Made by a program: the position numbers and the translations under genes
The notes under the pieces: model-generated
Seen by the model: the letters and a program-made list of their open reading frames with translations, nothing else
Told to the model about the DNA's origin: nothing
The model's database searches: none
Assembly: GCA_023268155.1 (NCBI GenBank)
Contig: JALNKM010000002.1
Span: 62,001 to 126,000 of the forward strand
DNA length: 64,000 nt
Reading direction: 5' to 3'
Source: Candidatus Geocrenenecus huangii
Lineage (GTDB): Archaea; Thermoproteota; Nitrososphaeria_A; Caldarchaeales; Wolframiiraptoraceae
In this document: piece after piece, positions 40,213-47,512 of the stretch
Position numbering within the stretch: position 1 is the stretch's first letter
Layout: each line of letters begins with the position of its first letter

Positions 40213-41019
40213 ATGTTCGAAGATGTATTGTTAAGTTTTCTATCAGGAGTTATTCAAGGGGTTACTGAATGGCTTCCGATAAGCAGTAAGACTATGTTGT
40301 TCTTCTTATTCCATCTATGGGGGATATCTACACAGGATTCATACATGCTTAGCTTGATGCTTAACGGGTCCACGATAGCGGCGGCCTCCATTTACTTTAG
40401 AAAAGAATTAGTAAGATTACTGGGTTTATCAAGAAAAGCCGACTCGAATCTCAGCCTACTCATGTTTTTGGTAGTCTCAACGTTTGTTACTGGAGTATTA
40501 GGAGTGATCCTTCATAGATTCTCACTCAGCTTTATAACGGAGTTAAGTTCAAGCGGTCTACTCATTTTCATAGGATGTATGCTGTTCGTATCTGCCTTGG
40601 TAAATTGGTTGAGGATGAAAATGAATCCCATCGAGAAGACTATGAATGATGTAAACTTAAGGGATGCATTTATTACAGGGGTAGCGCAATCCTTCTCCGT
40701 CCTACCCGGTATCAGTAGAAGTGGCGTAACAATACTAGTTCTCGTTATTAGGAGATACAATGTTAAAGATTCCTTAACGATCTCATACTTGATGAGTATA
40801 CCTGTAACACTGGGTGGAAGCATTTATGCTTACATAACTTACCCAAAAGTCTTCCAGATGCTGAATGTTTATGAAGCCTTATTCTCAGTGATTGTAGCGA
40901 CAATAGTCTCGTTAGCTATGATATCCATATTGCTTAGATTATCTCAAAAACTTAAACCACACCTATTCTTATCAACGTTATCCATCATAACTATTCTCTC
41001 AGGACTCCTCTTCCGCTAA
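40213..41019 (+). CDS. uppP: Undecaprenyl-diphosphatase-like (UppP/BacA)
   Basis: A 268-residue membrane protein with the BacA signature: SGVIQGVTEWLPISSKTML near 11-29 (E and S residues of the active site) and SVLPGISRSGVTI near 161-173 with the catalytic R-S. Eight or so helices. In archaea it probably recycles polyprenyl diphosphate used in glycosylation. The 3' end overlaps the ferritin-like gene on the other strand by 21 bases. Confidence 0.9.
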   Translation: MFEDVLLSFLSGVIQGVTEWLPISSKTMLFFLFHLWGISTQDSYMLSLMLNGSTIAAASIYFRKELVRLLGLSRKADSNLSLLMFLVVSTFVTGVLGVILHRFSLSFITELSSSGLLIFIGCMLFVSALVNWLRMKMNPIEKTMNDVNLRDAFITGVAQSFSVLPGISRSGVTILVLVIRRYNVKDSLTISYLMSIPVTLGGSIYAYITYPKVFQMLNVYEALFSVIVATIVSLAMISILLRLSQKLKPHLFLSTLSIITILSGLLFR

Positions 41020-41751
41020 CTCTATCAAGCTTCCAAGTATTCTTGCATGTTTTCTCTCATCTGCCTCCACGGACTCAATCAAGACTTTTAAGAGTTTATG
41101 TGGAAGATACGATTTTACTTCATCTAGGCTGTGGACGTGAGCGACCTCTTCTTTATCCAGCAATGATTGAAGAATGTTCTTCTCCGGCACTTCTATCTTT
41201 ACATCTTCGCCCCTCTCGAGTATCGAGATCGTGGACATTAGAATGTCAGCATGCTTAATACTATCGCTCGCTATCTGTCTAAAGATCATTCTAGTAATCT
41301 CGTTATCTATCTTGGAAGCCGTCTCCATGAATTTCTCAGCTGCTTCATGTTCTGCTTGAGCTCTCTCACGAAGCGTTCGGATAAGCTTGGTCTTAGCTTG
41401 CTCCAAACCATACTTTATTCTTCCCTTCTTCTCTTCTTCCAGTATTGATGAGATGGTCAATGCAAGCTCATATAGTTCCGCTTCAGAAATTTTCCCACCT
41501 TTGGAGATAATGTTCTCGACCGATTCACTGATAAGCTTACTAGCTCTTGGGTCTTCTAGAAGCTTAAGCAGTCTCCCCCTTCTACCGCTCATGTAATGTG
41601 TTACAGCTGCTGGGCTCACTCTAAGTATTTGAGAAGCTTTCCTCTTACTATAACTGTATTTCTCTACAAGTATCTTTATCATCTTGGCCCTAATTGCAGG
41701 GACCAACTGCTCAGACCGGATAGACATCACTCGAGTATAGTTATCTTCCAA
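40999..41751 (-). CDS. HTH regulator fused to a ferritin-like four-helix domain
   Basis: A 250-residue fusion. Residues about 20-55 are a helix-turn-helix (YSKRKASQILRVSPAAVTHY), similar to archaeal COG2522-type regulators, followed by a helical linker. Residues about 125-245 have the ferritin/rubrerythrin arrangement of Glu and His (RAQAEHEAAEK with E134/H135, DSIKHADI with H167, EEVAHVHS with E201/E202, ESVEADERKHA with E229/E232/H235), suited to a di-iron site. It is divergent from feoAB across a 127-base region with an inverted repeat. I infer an iron- or oxygen-sensing repressor of iron uptake. Start TTG 41751, or ATG 41727 (MSIRSEQL). Confidence 0.72.
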   Translation of the reverse strand: MEDNYTRVMSIRSEQLVPAIRAKMIKILVEKYSYSKRKASQILRVSPAAVTHYMSGRRGRLLKLLEDPRASKLISESVENIISKGGKISEAELYELALTISSILEEEKKGRIKYGLEQAKTKLIRTLRERAQAEHEAAEKFMETASKIDNEITRMIFRQIASDSIKHADILMSTISILERGEDVKIEVPEKNILQSLLDKEEVAHVHSLDEVKSYLPHKLLKVLIESVEADERKHARILGSLIELAEEES

Positions 41752-41780
41752 AGTTAAAAACTTGTGTTTTATATTCTTTG

Positions 41781-41815
41781 TTTACACTGTAAATTCAGTA
41801 TTTTTACGGTGAAAA
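41781..41815. promoter_or_regulatory. Candidate operator between the HTH/ferritin gene and feoA
   Basis: TTTACACTGTAAATT (41781-41795) and TTTTTACGGTGAAAA (41801-41815) are inverted relative to each other (twelve of fifteen bases; core CACtGTAAA and TTTACgGTG). They lie between two outward TATA boxes: AATATAAAAC on the minus strand (about 41766-41775) for the regulator and CTTAAATAC (41819-41827) for feoA. A dimer bound here could block both promoters. Confidence 0.6.
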
Positions 41816-41878
41816 ACTCTTAAATACGGATTTTCCCTCCTAACAGCTAGAAAGAATAGATGAGGTTAATGAAGTAAT

Positions 41879-42133
41879 ATGAGAGGAGATAAGCTAGACA
41901 ACGTCCTCCCATTATCGGTTGTCAAAGAGGGGAAGACCGTTAGAATAGTTAAGATCATTGGTGGAGGAGGATTGGTTAGAAGATTATATGAAATAGGTCT
42001 CCTACCTGGAGTAGAAGTAATGATTGTAAGAAATAGTGGGTTTGGGCCGGTCATAATCAGAAATAATGTTAGTGGGACTTTCTGCCTAGGTTTCGGGGTA
42101 GCAAAGAAAATCATTGTTGAGGTGGTGTCATGA
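41879..42133 (+). CDS. feoA: Ferrous iron transport protein A (FeoA)
   Basis: 84 residues with an SH3-like fold: GKTVRIVKIIGGGGLVRRLYEIGLLPGVEV near 19-48, the FeoA consensus (G-x-x-x-x-V-x-x-I-x-G-G-x-G-x-x-x-R-L-x-E-x-G-x-x-P-G), and GFGVAKKIIVEVV. It interacts with FeoB. It ends in an ATGA overlap with feoB. Confidence 0.94.
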   Translation: MRGDKLDNVLPLSVVKEGKTVRIVKIIGGGGLVRRLYEIGLLPGVEVMIVRNSGFGPVIIRNNVSGTFCLGFGVAKKIIVEVVS

Positions 42134-44205
42134 GTTGCCATGAATCAAGGGCAGGTTCCACACTTAAAGCTAGGCAAAAAGCAATTAAAATCGGCATTAT
42201 CGGAAATCCAAACGTTGGCAAATCAGTTTTATTCAATAAACTGACTAAAGGAAAAGCATGGGTTGGGAATTGGCCGGGCGTAACAGTAGAGAAGAAAGTT
42301 GGGAAGCTCACTTTAGATGGAATAAGCTTCGAGTTAGTTGACCTACCTGGAATATATGGTTTAACCGCTTATAGTCAAGATGAGCTTATCGCGAGAAAAT
42401 TCCTACTTGAAGGAAAACCGGAAATTGTAATTCAGGTTACCAATGCTATCAACTTGGAGAGAAACCTCTACCTAACTATCCAGCTGCTTGAAATGGGTTT
42501 CAAATTAGTCATAGCATTGAATATGGCTGACCTAGCGGAGAAAGAAGGTGTAAAGATAGATGTAGATGGATTAAGAAGAGAGTTGAGAACCCCTATAATT
42601 CCCACAATCGCTGTGAAAAATTTCGGATTAAACCAGCTTATAGAAACGATTAAAGAACAATTAGATAAACCAGCTCCATTCTTTAAAATTGATTATGGGC
42701 CAGAGATAGAAGAAGCTATAGAAAAAATAAGGAGGCTCATTGATTCACCTATTAGAAGGCTAGGTTTAAAGATTGACCCAAGATGGTTAGCAATTCGATT
42801 ACTTGAGGATGATAACGATATAGTACAAAGGCTTAGAGATATGGGGTTTGAAGATATCGTTTCTGAAGCTCGACATATTAGAGATGAACTGCAAGCTCAA
42901 TTAAATGAAAGCGTTGAGGTCTTGATTATTGAGAAGAGATACGAGTATCTGCTTAACTTGTCAAGGAAGTATGTTAGAAGGAAAACTGCCGAGAAGAGTC
43001 TTACGGACTTGACAGATGGGCTAGACAAGGTTTTAACACATCCAATATTGGGCTTAATGGTGTTCGTATCTATTCTTTACCTACTGTTTAAATTCTCATT
43101 CGATGTCGCATCCTCCTTAACCGAAGTAATCAGGGTAACCTTCTCTCAACATATACATGATCTTGTAAAAAATTCTCTCCATCCAGAATTTATTTCATCT
43201 CTATTTGTAGACGGGGTTCTAAACGGTGTCGGAACTATATTGATATTTATTCCAAATCTTTTATTCTTGTTTATAGGCATCTCTACACTCGAAGATACCG
43301 GATACATGGCTAGAGTCGCTTTCTTATCTGATAGATTGATGAATAGGCTTGGTTTAAGCGGGCGAGCGATGATACCATTATTGATCGGCTTCGGATGTAA
43401 TGTTCCAGCGGTAATGTCAACTAGGGTTCTCGGATCCGATAGGGAGAGAAGACTATCGGTCTTCATGATACCTTTCATGTCATGCAGCGCTAGACTTCCA
43501 ATATTTCTCTTACTCACTCTCGCATTCTTTAGAGAGAACCAGCTCATAGTAATTCTAAGCATGTACTTCCTAGGCGTCTTTATAGCAGTATTAACGGCTC
43601 TTCTATTCAATAACCTATTCTACAGAAAACAGGTAGCCGGATACGTTATGGACATGCCTCCATATCTTAATCCCTCGATCAGAAACATTCTAGCTAAGAG
43701 CTGGGAAAGAATAAGATCATTCTTGATGAAGGCTGGAACCATAATCTTGTTAATGTCAGTCGTTATATGGGTTCTCAGTGTAACAGGTCCTGAAGGATAC
43801 ATAGGACCAGAAGCTTTAAGAGATGTCGAACTTCTATCACGTAGCTGGATAGCCTCTTTCAGCAGGTTTCTAGAACCATTATTCAAACCATTAAACTGGG
43901 ATTGGCGGATAATAGCGTCACTAAGTTTTGGTTTCATAGCTAAAGAAGTAGTGGTTTCTTCACTGGCGGTCTTATACAATGTAGGTGTAGAAAGTCTCCC
44001 TACTGTTCTTTCAGATTCTCTTACCCCCCTAGCAGCATACTCTCTCATGACTTTCGCTCTTCTCTATACTCCATGCATGGCCACAGTTGCAACGATGAGG
44101 AACGAAGTAGGATTACGATACACTCTACTCATGGTACTCTACCAACTATTAATTGCATACACCGCTGCTTACTTGATCTTATCGATTGGAGGGATGGTTA
44201 TTTGA
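42130..44205 (+). CDS. feoB: Ferrous iron transporter FeoB
   Basis: A 691-residue iron permease. N-terminal G domain: GNPNVGKS (25-32), WVGNWPGVTVEKK with switch I, DLPGIYGL with G3, and NMAD (G4). Two Gate motifs follow in the membrane part: GFGCNVPAVMSTR near 419-431 and LLYTPCMATVATMR near the end, with the conserved Cys. It imports Fe2+ under low iron. The start overlaps feoA (ATGA); the TTGA at the end couples it to the next membrane gene. Confidence 0.97.
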   Translation: MSCHESRAGSTLKARQKAIKIGIIGNPNVGKSVLFNKLTKGKAWVGNWPGVTVEKKVGKLTLDGISFELVDLPGIYGLTAYSQDELIARKFLLEGKPEIVIQVTNAINLERNLYLTIQLLEMGFKLVIALNMADLAEKEGVKIDVDGLRRELRTPIIPTIAVKNFGLNQLIETIKEQLDKPAPFFKIDYGPEIEEAIEKIRRLIDSPIRRLGLKIDPRWLAIRLLEDDNDIVQRLRDMGFEDIVSEARHIRDELQAQLNESVEVLIIEKRYEYLLNLSRKYVRRKTAEKSLTDLTDGLDKVLTHPILGLMVFVSILYLLFKFSFDVASSLTEVIRVTFSQHIHDLVKNSLHPEFISSLFVDGVLNGVGTILIFIPNLLFLFIGISTLEDTGYMARVAFLSDRLMNRLGLSGRAMIPLLIGFGCNVPAVMSTRVLGSDRERRLSVFMIPFMSCSARLPIFLLLTLAFFRENQLIVILSMYFLGVFIAVLTALLFNNLFYRKQVAGYVMDMPPYLNPSIRNILAKSWERIRSFLMKAGTIILLMSVVIWVLSVTGPEGYIGPEALRDVELLSRSWIASFSRFLEPLFKPLNWDWRIIASLSFGFIAKEVVVSSLAVLYNVGVESLPTVLSDSLTPLAAYSLMTFALLYTPCMATVATMRNEVGLRYTLLMVLYQLLIAYTAAYLILSIGGMVI

Positions 44206-44603
44206 AGACGGTGGCAGGCTACGGGTTGATCATAGGCATAACATACATATCATCTACACTCATCTTCTTAATAGAGAATATGTCTGGAACTCGATTGTTG
44301 ATTCCTCAGCTTCTCCCGGAGGATGGGGGGATGGCTTTCTACTTCATAACGGTTGGAAGCTTATATGGATATGCATACTTCAAGTCTAGAGAAAAAATAT
44401 TCGAGACCGTGCTCTTGGTAGCATCAATAATGTCTATCGCAATAATGTTAGTCCAGCTACTGAATTCCACGCTCAACTTGATGATTACACTTACCTCAAA
44501 TGCTTGGATAATAGCAACCTACAACCTCTCAAGAATAGAGATTATCTTAGGATTGTTGTCTATACCGCTCCTACTAAGGATAAGGAGGGATATCTACGAG
44601 TAG
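44202..44603 (+). CDS. Small membrane protein coupled to feoB
   Basis: About 133 residues and four transmembrane helices (LIIGITYISSTLIFLIE, MAFYFITVGSLYGYAYF, ETVLLVASIMSIAIMLVQLL, IEIILGLLSIPLLL). The start TTG 44202-44204 overlaps the feoB TGA (44203-44205); the longer open frame upstream lies inside feoB. No conserved motif is known to me. The coupling to feoB and the downstream feoC-like gene suggest an accessory role in iron uptake. Confidence 0.65.
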   Translation: MKTVAGYGLIIGITYISSTLIFLIENMSGTRLLIPQLLPEDGGMAFYFITVGSLYGYAYFKSREKIFETVLLVASIMSIAIMLVQLLNSTLNLMITLTSNAWIIATYNLSRIEIILGLLSIPLLLRIRRDIYE

Positions 44604-44625: not shown

Positions 44626-44880
44626 TTGATGCTACTCATATCTGGATGCATGGACTTAAACACTTTGAAGAACAAACTTAGTACTAGTAGAGAGGAGTTA
44701 GAGGTAGGTCTAACCATTCTCGAAACACATGGATACATCGAGAAGACCAGTTTCGGGGAAGCATGTAGAACATGCACTCTCTACAGTGAATGCAGAAGTC
44801 GAAACCCACAACTCTACAAAATAACAGAAAAAGGCATGAAGCAGGTCAAAAGGGAGACAGAGAAAACAGACAATAAATAA
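44626..44880 (+). CDS. feoC: FeoC-like winged-helix protein with Cys cluster
   Basis: 84 residues. The N-terminal half is a winged helix (MDLNTLKNKLSTSREELEVG, LETHGYIEKTSF), followed by ACRTCTLYSECRSR, three Cys in a C-x2-C-x5-C pattern. FeoC proteins have the same plan with a Cys cluster for Fe-S binding and control FeoB. Position after feoAB agrees. Start ATG 44626 or a later Met (MDLNT). Confidence 0.75.
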   Translation: MMLLISGCMDLNTLKNKLSTSREELEVGLTILETHGYIEKTSFGEACRTCTLYSECRSRNPQLYKITEKGMKQVKRETEKTDNK

Positions 44881-46559: not shown

Positions 46560-47297
46560 TTACTCTTCTAGTTCCTGTATGAAGTCACCATGCCAAGAAT
46601 GGTACCAGACTGCCCCTGTAAATTCATTTACGCTTAACATGCCATGCATCCGCCCATCGAGTTTATAATCCATTGTATAGTAGCCGTAGAACCTTGTCGG
46701 CTCCTCTACCTCTATTCTTCCAGGATAGATACTTGAGAGATATTCGTACGCTATCTGCATTGCTTCATCGTCTGTTACCCTAGTCGTGAAAGATGTAATA
46801 GTCTGTGACCCCATCATATGCCACATCCTATAATGCATTCCATACTTCGTATTCCACATCATGTTGGGGCCAGGCTCAGGCATTATCGCTCCTGTGTACG
46901 GGTCCACGAGGAGTTCAAAAGCTCCAATGCCGGTATCTTCTTCTATTACGATGGCGTAGAAGTTGTTTGTGAACTCCATAATTTCTTTGACATAGAAGCC
47001 TCGACCTAAGCTTGATATATAGTAATTTAACCTCGATTTAACATCATTTATATCGAGTCTCTGAGTATTATTCGATGGAGACCACCAGCCGCCATGCATT
47101 GGGCATCCAAATCCTCCATACCACCAACCTCCACGCATCTGCTGTGGATACTTATATGCCTGTGCTCTCGACGACATTAACATCACGTCGGTCCCCATGG
47201 CGACCGCAGTTACTGTTAAGAAGCCTATTGCCCCTATTAATGCTACTGCAAGAGCTATTGCGATTATCAACAGGTTAGAATTTTTTAGGTTCCTCAT
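46560..47297 (-). CDS. Secreted or anchored Met/His/Trp-rich PepSY-like protein
   Basis: About 245 residues. An N-terminal hydrophobic helix (LLIIAIALAVALIGAIGFL) acts as signal or anchor. Then comes a stretch rich in Gly, Trp, Cys, Met and His (GGWWYGGFGCPMHGGWW), followed by two PepSY-like repeats (YVKEIMEFTNNFYAIVIEED; DDEAMQIAYEYLSSIYPGRI), with further Met/His (MHYRMWHMMGS, GRMHGMLS) between. The Met/His/Cys content suggests copper or another soft metal at the outside. Start ATG 47297 (MRNLKNSN), nine bases after the YHS gene. Confidence 0.7.
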   Translation of the reverse strand: MRNLKNSNLLIIAIALAVALIGAIGFLTVTAVAMGTDVMLMSSRAQAYKYPQQMRGGWWYGGFGCPMHGGWWSPSNNTQRLDINDVKSRLNYYISSLGRGFYVKEIMEFTNNFYAIVIEEDTGIGAFELLVDPYTGAIMPEPGPNMMWNTKYGMHYRMWHMMGSQTITSFTTRVTDDEAMQIAYEYLSSIYPGRIEVEEPTRFYGYYTMDYKLDGRMHGMLSVNEFTGAVWYHSWHGDFIQELEE

Positions 47298-47305
47298 ATT
47301 CCCAC

Positions 47306-47512
47306 CTAGCAACAACGATTGAAGGAGTGAGTGTGAGACTCATTATTAGAGGGCGTATTAATGTATCTTTCTGGATTCTTCTCGAATTCAGTTTTACAGT
47401 ATTCTGAGCAGAAGTAGTATGTTTCTCCGAGATGCGTACTTTTAATGCTTCCTTCTTTCTTCACCTTCATGCCGCAGACCGGATCTCTAACCTCTTCTCT
47501 TCTCCTAAACAT
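47306..47512 (-). CDS. YHS-domain protein
   Basis: 68 residues: RDPVCGMKVKKEGSIKSTHL, then YYFCSEYCKTEFEKNPERYI, the YHS metal-binding domain (D-P-V-C-G-M ... Y-x-F-C-S-x-x-C-x-x-x-F), with a C-terminal tail holding three His and two Cys (SHTHSFNRCC). YHS domains are found in copper and mercury handling proteins. First gene of the operon with the PepSY-like gene; an inverted repeat lies in its upstream region. Confidence 0.88.
   Translation of the reverse strand: MFRRREEVRDPVCGMKVKKEGSIKSTHLGETYYFCSEYCKTEFEKNPERYINTPSNNESHTHSFNRCC

Follow-up and report, generated by a model that had tools for sequence, protein, structure and literature searches.

A fusion of an N-terminal HTH domain to a C-terminal ferritin-like domain, encoded opposite the feo operon, appears to be a hitherto undescribed kind of iron-sensing switch in hot-spring archaea. 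Judging from sequence comparisons, we put at roughly 70% the probability that this protein represses iron uptake in response to iron, and in relatives Fe-S assembly as well, with a modified ferritin-like site as its sensor. The gene is located in a 64,000-nt stretch of DNA, hereafter called the window, which is part of a 1.7-Mb archaeal draft genome (G000). Among named relatives, Candidatus Geocrenenecus arthurdayi (protein 87% identical) and a MAG filed under Nitrososphaerales are the closest; the genomes of the relatives are mostly draft assemblies, in which the ORFs were called mechanically.

The preliminary description of this locus had placed the fusion gene in divergent orientation to an operon consisting of feoA, feoB, a membrane protein gene and a feoC-like gene, and all of these were found again as ORFs and by profile matches (Table 1). 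The small membrane protein of the operon has no match in Pfam, and the winged-helix gene that follows feoB is kept in the genomes G001, G002 and G004. The fusion had been described as a protein of 250 residues, and an HTH/ferritin-like ORF is indeed present at 40999-41751 on the minus strand, but its start is probably the ATG at 41727 rather than the TTG at 41751, which would add 8 residues. The shorter product is favored because in the three closest homologues the first residue corresponds to residue 8 or 9 here (the closest reads MSIRSEQL), and because the TATA-like box upstream of the regulator would set the start of transcription near position 41745. Near feo, by eye, the minus strand also encodes an exported protein that is rich in Met, His and Trp and has PepSY-like sequence (46560-47315), and adjoining it a small protein that resembles the YHS metal-binding domain (47306-47512).

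Table 1. Coordinates of the regulator gene, its domains, the putative control elements and the facing feo operon in the window.
Feature	Position	Strand	Basis
HTH/ferritin-like regulator gene	40999..41727	-	ORF; probable start ATG 41727, 242 aa
C-terminal ferritin-like helical domain, residues 116-249	41005..41406	-	PF02915, 9qq4 profile, AF2 domain model
N-terminal HTH, lambda-repressor/XRE-like, residues 11-90	41482..41721	-	HTH_3 in 18/27 family members
TATA-like box of regulator, ATATAAAA	41767..41774	-	direct reading; putative
Operator 1, TTTACACTGTAAA, perfect 13-bp palindrome	41781..41793	.	abuts BRE/TATA of regulator promoter
Operator 2, TTTTACGGTGAAAA, imperfect palindrome	41802..41815	.	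abuts BRE/TATA of feoA promoter
TATA-like box of feoA, TTAAATA	41820..41826	+	direct reading; putative
feoA	41879..42133	+	PF04023 E=5e-16
feoB	42130..44205	+	TIGR00437 619.9 bits vs cut-off 315.65
Small membrane protein gene, feo operon	44202..44603	+	listed ORF from 44073; homologues suggest start near 44202
FeoC-like winged-helix protein gene, Cys-rich segment CRTCTLYSEC	44626..44880	+	HTH_34 E=2e-4, below curated cut-off

The proposal that the C-terminal half of the protein is ferritin-like is supported by profile matches to ferritin-like families, and the closest folds of a moderate-confidence model are bacterioferritins. The Rubrerythrin profile PF02915 matches the C-terminal domain of the window protein above the gathering score (E=7e-5), as it does 17 of the 27 members of the fusion family. 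A profile built from 23 domain sequences matched the archaeal mini-bacterioferritin 9qq4 in the PDB across the entire domain (E=0.0017), in a match list that also contains designed four-helix bundles, and the ferritin matches of a single-sequence PDB search were only weak (E=0.11). Furthermore, an AF2 model of the domain from a five-sequence alignment has long helices as expected (pLDDT 73), and nearly all of its top 50 PDB folds in Foldseek were ferritins or bacterioferritins, although the scores are weak, the best match having E 0.08 at a probability of 0.97. The full-length AF2 model had no significant fold match in the PDB; with pLDDT values of 70-73 from an alignment of 5 sequences, moderate confidence can be placed in the AF2 models. 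No viral relatives of the fusion were found in IMG/VR, and PHROGs gave no match to it.

The pattern of conservation within this domain suggests a metal site. In 27 proteins from three phyla the residues R130, E134, A161, D163, H167, A168, E201, D231, E232, K234 and H235 are invariant, and these columns are reproduced when the domain is aligned alone. Residues E134, H167, E201, E232 and H235 align with E16, H52, E91, E124 and H127 of 9qq4, in which the iron ligands of the ferroxidase centre include E16, E49 (helix B), H52, E91, E124 and H127 (PMC13168243). Five of the six di-iron ligands of the canonical set, E, ExxH, E, ExxH, are invariant in the family, whereas the sixth, which corresponds to E49, is Ser or Cys and directly follows the invariant D163, and the helix-B motif reads D-S/C-x-x-H and not E-x-x-H. 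The Glu/His spacing of ferritin-like proteins previously ascribed to the domain accordingly holds for three of the helices (A, C and D), whereas helix B departs from it. Because the helix-B Glu is replaced in this manner beside an invariant Asp, we interpret the predicted site as a modified di-iron site rather than a canonical one. A sensor based on an Fe-S cluster with Cys ligands is unlikely, since the window protein has no Cys at all and none is conserved across the fusion family.

A standalone ferritin-like protein with a DSxxH / DExxH signature as in the fusion is encoded elsewhere in the same genome (L003, 1.44-1.97 kb; G000:C7 near 249528). Similar standalone proteins (L070, L071 and L073) end in HGAPGG.

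The assignment of the N-terminal domain draws mostly on the family as a whole. The best family match to the HTH_3 profile has E=4e-7, whereas the window protein by itself matches HTH_31 only, below the cut-off (E=0.009), and the best match of the full family profile in the PDB is the Pli0006 HTH protein (E=5e-5). The DtxR/IdeR domains (Fe_dep_repress N-terminal and metal-binding dimerisation) have no match in the window protein and a weak, HTH-only match in 2 of the 27 members, and a profile search for the Fur domain (PF01475) gave no match in the window protein or the family. Standalone homologues of the HTH region occur in most relatives. In the window's own genome, such a homologue of 124 aa with a Cys-rich tail, CQLHKGIEPFIDTSECKVCFE, is located beside SMS-type SufBC (smsBC) genes (L002, 1.48-1.86 kb; G000:C15 near 210345). 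Its HTH is archaeal, XRE-like and homologous to that of the fusion, with 33% identity over 76 residues, but it carries the Cys motif at its end in place of the ferritin-like domain, and it is possibly an Fe-S-sensing sister regulator.

The region between the regulator gene and feoA had been reported to contain one inverted repeat (41781-41815) between two outward TATA boxes. TATA-like boxes do lie outside the repeat on both sides, but the repeat itself consists of two copies of a palindrome, located about 21 bp apart from centre to centre, or about two helical turns. The consensus of these putative operators is a 13-bp palindrome, TWWAC-NNN-GTWWA, the centre of which is usually R-S-Y. Operator 1 by itself is within chance, with 0.10 perfect 13-bp palindromes expected and P about 0.09. 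In a comparison of the three closest species, both palindromes and the TATA region stand out as the main conserved blocks. Across 34 loci, the 170-bp regions upstream of the fusion contain 40 WWACNNNGTWW sites, versus 2.7 expected from Markov shuffles, and the density elsewhere in those loci is 0.042 per 170 bp. At 36 aligned sites, the operator core either overlaps an AT-rich, TATA-like box or follows it at a distance of about 7-14 bp, so that the operator would cover the promoter between TATA and start. A conserved operator that overlaps the promoter core at genes for metal homeostasis, as is characteristic of the class of metal-responsive repressors, is thus found here.

Of 61 relatives, about 34 were found to carry the full-length fusion, and a count of full-length profile matches across the phylum gave about 50 genomes out of 398. 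The linkage of the fusion to feoAB extends to these relatives, as the preliminary description had supposed: the two are divergent in all 13 genomes, those of the window's family, in which both are readable side by side (the window, L037, L038, L039, L042, L044, L046, L049, L051-L054 and, by eye, L043). FeoB is mostly missing in family f4 and genus g9, and in the FeoB-less genomes of these groups the fusion faces or precedes an ABC operon of the PhnD/PhnC/PhnE type (PF12974). In the genome G029, it is an FTR1/EfeU permease (TIGR00145) that faces the fusion, and the sister G033 has the ABC operon where G029 has FTR1, between the same downstream genes; the two transporters have thus been swapped behind the same operator (L041, 5.0-5.8 kb, versus L040, 3.4-5.9 kb). 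Likewise, a homologue in the Micrarchaeota, 33% identical, adjoins a gene for an FTR1 permease. As read from gene order, the linkage to iron uptake persists while the type of transporter changes.

Other surroundings were also observed. No transporter is located beside the fusion in genus g6 of family f2, where the neighbours are methyltransferase-like and CitG-like genes, and the fusion of family f13 has neither an adjacent iron gene nor the palindrome; it is found beside a glucanotransferase gene or other genes in these genomes (L239-L251). At L072 (G016:C8:17482-30095) lies another feoB, riddled with stop codons and next to a remnant that resembles the fusion; it represents a decayed copy of a feo/regulator locus.

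Yet another line of evidence comes from the sites at other genes. It had been asked whether the repeat is conserved in relatives; it is, and it recurs at the promoters of Suf genes and of other iron transporters. In eight genomes of family f4, ATAACRSYGTTAT occurs 26 times, with 2-4 sites per genome, versus 3 for the reversed-pattern control. These sites are distributed over the fusion/transporter promoter (8), sufB (8), sufC (7), a mercaptopyruvate sulfurtransferase-like gene (2) and a MoeB/MoeZ gene (1); all sites other than those at the fusion were inspected, and the targets were identified by NCBIfam on one representative each and by sequence likeness for the rest. In family f2, the palindrome directly precedes 11 of 12 sufB genes, and none was found at sufC. 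Two genomes that encode a 70%-identical SufB but not the full-length fusion have no palindrome in front of that gene. G022 and G042 do have the sufB site, although their assemblies, which are incomplete, yielded no full-length fusion. In family f1, SMS-type SufBC mostly takes the place of SufB. No operator was found ahead of the SMS-type SufBC genes in the window's family, except that the palindrome precedes the sufC of G006.

For the window's own genome, only feo and the regulator gene can be assigned to the predicted regulon with confidence. The pattern TTTACRSYGTAAA is perfect only in the intergenic region between the regulator gene and feoA, and occurs with one mismatch in 8 places, versus 2 for the control; two of the 8 are operators 1 and 2, one of the other six is upstream of a tRNA-thiolation-type gene and three are within ORFs. 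The site at the Cys-rich tRNA-thiolation-type gene (L252, position 1501; G000:C7:111947), TTTACGGCGTGAA, is located 35 bp upstream and marks a possible further target. A broader pattern, TWWACNNNGTWWA, was rejected for defining this regulon, being too loose with 70 sites versus 31 for the reversed control.

In genomes without the fusion, the palindrome sites inspected are mostly within ORFs. Single palindromes were also seen at three loci: L203 has one near a standalone HTH gene, L205 has one 76 bp ahead of an SMS-type sufC, and in L206 the palindrome immediately precedes a gene for a 439-aa protein, which has a standalone HTH on its downstream side. A similar operator may be used by the standalone HTH family.

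Taken together, the data suggest a model in which the XRE-like HTH binds the TWWAC-NNN-GTWWA palindrome, presumably as a dimer. Operators 1 and 2 would each contact the promoter core of one of the divergent genes, and the fusion would thereby repress both feoAB and itself. In archaeal promoters, a protein bound at the BRE/TATA side blocks TBP/TFB or polymerase, and an operator placed over the promoter in this way would be expected to cause repression. The C-terminal bundle would bind iron at the modified di-iron site, which keeps E134, H167, E201, E232 and H235 and has the invariant Asp163 beside the replaced helix-B Glu, and the occupancy by iron, perhaps also its oxidation state, would set the affinity for DNA. 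The iron-loaded form most likely favors DNA binding, because genes for uptake must be off when iron is plentiful, and by analogy with Fur and DtxR the apo form would release the DNA. The loss of the helix-B carboxylate may leave the iron labile, as a sensor requires. The earlier idea that the ferritin-like part senses iron or oxygen and that the HTH represses feo is upheld insofar as the placement of the operators predicts repression, whereas the signal and the loaded form are what we infer.

We also considered the possibility that the fusion is a repressor for redox or oxygen stress, in which oxidation of an iron-loaded site by O2 or H2O2 releases the suf and iron-uptake genes and iron is a cofactor, as in PerR. 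Ferritin-like di-iron sites react with both oxidants, the absent helix-B Glu could change the redox chemistry, and targets such as suf, rhodanese and MoeB/MoeZ fit a response to Fe-S damage. However, what adjoins the fusion most constantly is a set of genes for iron transport (feoAB, FTR1), the induction of which by oxidants would be harmful, and members of the window's lineage are described as anaerobic thermophiles (PMC9246946). A role in the oxidant response is thus possible but on the whole unlikely, and we favor iron as the signal. Whether the signal might be Mn or Zn instead, with the linkage to iron as a secondary feature, is a question raised by ZnuABC-type genes that adjoin the fusion in G024, G027 and G039, and by the fact that Mn can occupy ferritin-like sites. 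Such a response seems improbable to us, since FeoAB, FTR1 and Suf are systems for iron and Fe-S clusters that recur in three families and in another phylum, and the Znu operon lies on the fusion's other side, away from the shared operator region.

It could further be argued that the palindromes belong to the standalone HTH homologue (~124 aa, with the Cys-rich tail and beside smsBC here) and not to the fusion, given that this homologue is present in most relatives and that in L203, L205 and L206, which come from genomes lacking the fusion, single palindromes are located near it or near iron-sulfur genes. Yet the genome-wide clustering at Suf and transporter genes was seen in genomes that have the fusion, the inspected sites of fusion-less genomes are mostly within ORFs, and sites are present at the fusion gene itself, which makes this assignment doubtful. 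Least convincing is the notion that the C-terminal domain serves for iron storage, as a ferroxidase or as a scaffold, and that the HTH only tethers it or regulates its own gene, with no sensing involved. In its favor, the domain resembles an EncB-type encapsulated ferritin (E=1e-5), with a score that falls far short of the curated cut-off. Against it, the canonical helix-B Glu is absent, a conserved operator and a regulon extend beyond the fusion's own locus, and a general scan of the neighbourhoods brought no encapsulin gene to notice. We therefore retain the interpretation of the fusion as an iron-responsive repressor.

Several known systems resemble parts of the proposed switch. Fur and the DtxR/IdeR/MntR proteins exert an iron-responsive repression of feoAB and suf-like targets through a palindrome that overlaps the promoter, as predicted for the fusion, but they are winged-helix proteins, whereas the fusion has an XRE-like HTH and a predicted ferritin-like four-helix sensor. 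The Fe-S cluster repressors IscR, RirA and SufR share with the fusion the Suf operon and iron uptake as targets; unlike them, it has no Cys, with none conserved in its family, and is not of the Rrf2 type. The mini-bacterioferritin of Ca. Methanoperedens (PDB 9qq4) and the rubrerythrin/ferritin-like superfamily have the four-helix domain and align at five of the six ferroxidase ligands, but the fusion differs from these in the Ser/Cys and invariant Asp of helix B, in the attached HTH and in that no storage shell is expected. To our knowledge, the known iron-responsive transcription factors (Fur, DtxR and IscR/RirA types) never use a ferritin-like fold as the sensor. The nearest precedent in principle is provided by FBXL5 and BRUTUS/HRZ, eukaryotic iron sensors with a di-iron hemerythrin-like domain (PMC12022348). 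A di-iron four-helix domain as the iron sensor, predicted in the fusion, is common to both, although in the eukaryotes it is a hemerythrin fold on ubiquitin ligases and here a ferritin-like domain on a DNA-binding archaeal protein. A full-text search limited to open-access PMC found no description of an HTH/ferritin-like regulator. Other ways of sensing iron and of controlling uptake by FeoB have been suggested in a review of the iron genes of archaea (PMC8351635).

The fusion offers a concrete candidate, consisting of a protein, an operator and target genes, for which an in vitro check would need no more than a single protein and a 35-bp DNA. We lean toward the broader hypothesis that it represents a new class of iron-sensing transcription factors with a ferritin-like di-iron sensor, a counterpart of Fur and DtxR in the Caldarchaeales and some other archaea, which controls iron uptake and Suf through a palindrome. 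This hypothesis includes the prediction that the PhnDCE-like operon encodes an iron importer, because the operon and FTR1 swap behind the same operator in sister species, and the PhnD/PhnC/PhnE-type ABC transporter may thus import iron rather than phosphonate. If true, the operators would mark this transporter as an iron importer that stands in for FeoB or FTR1.
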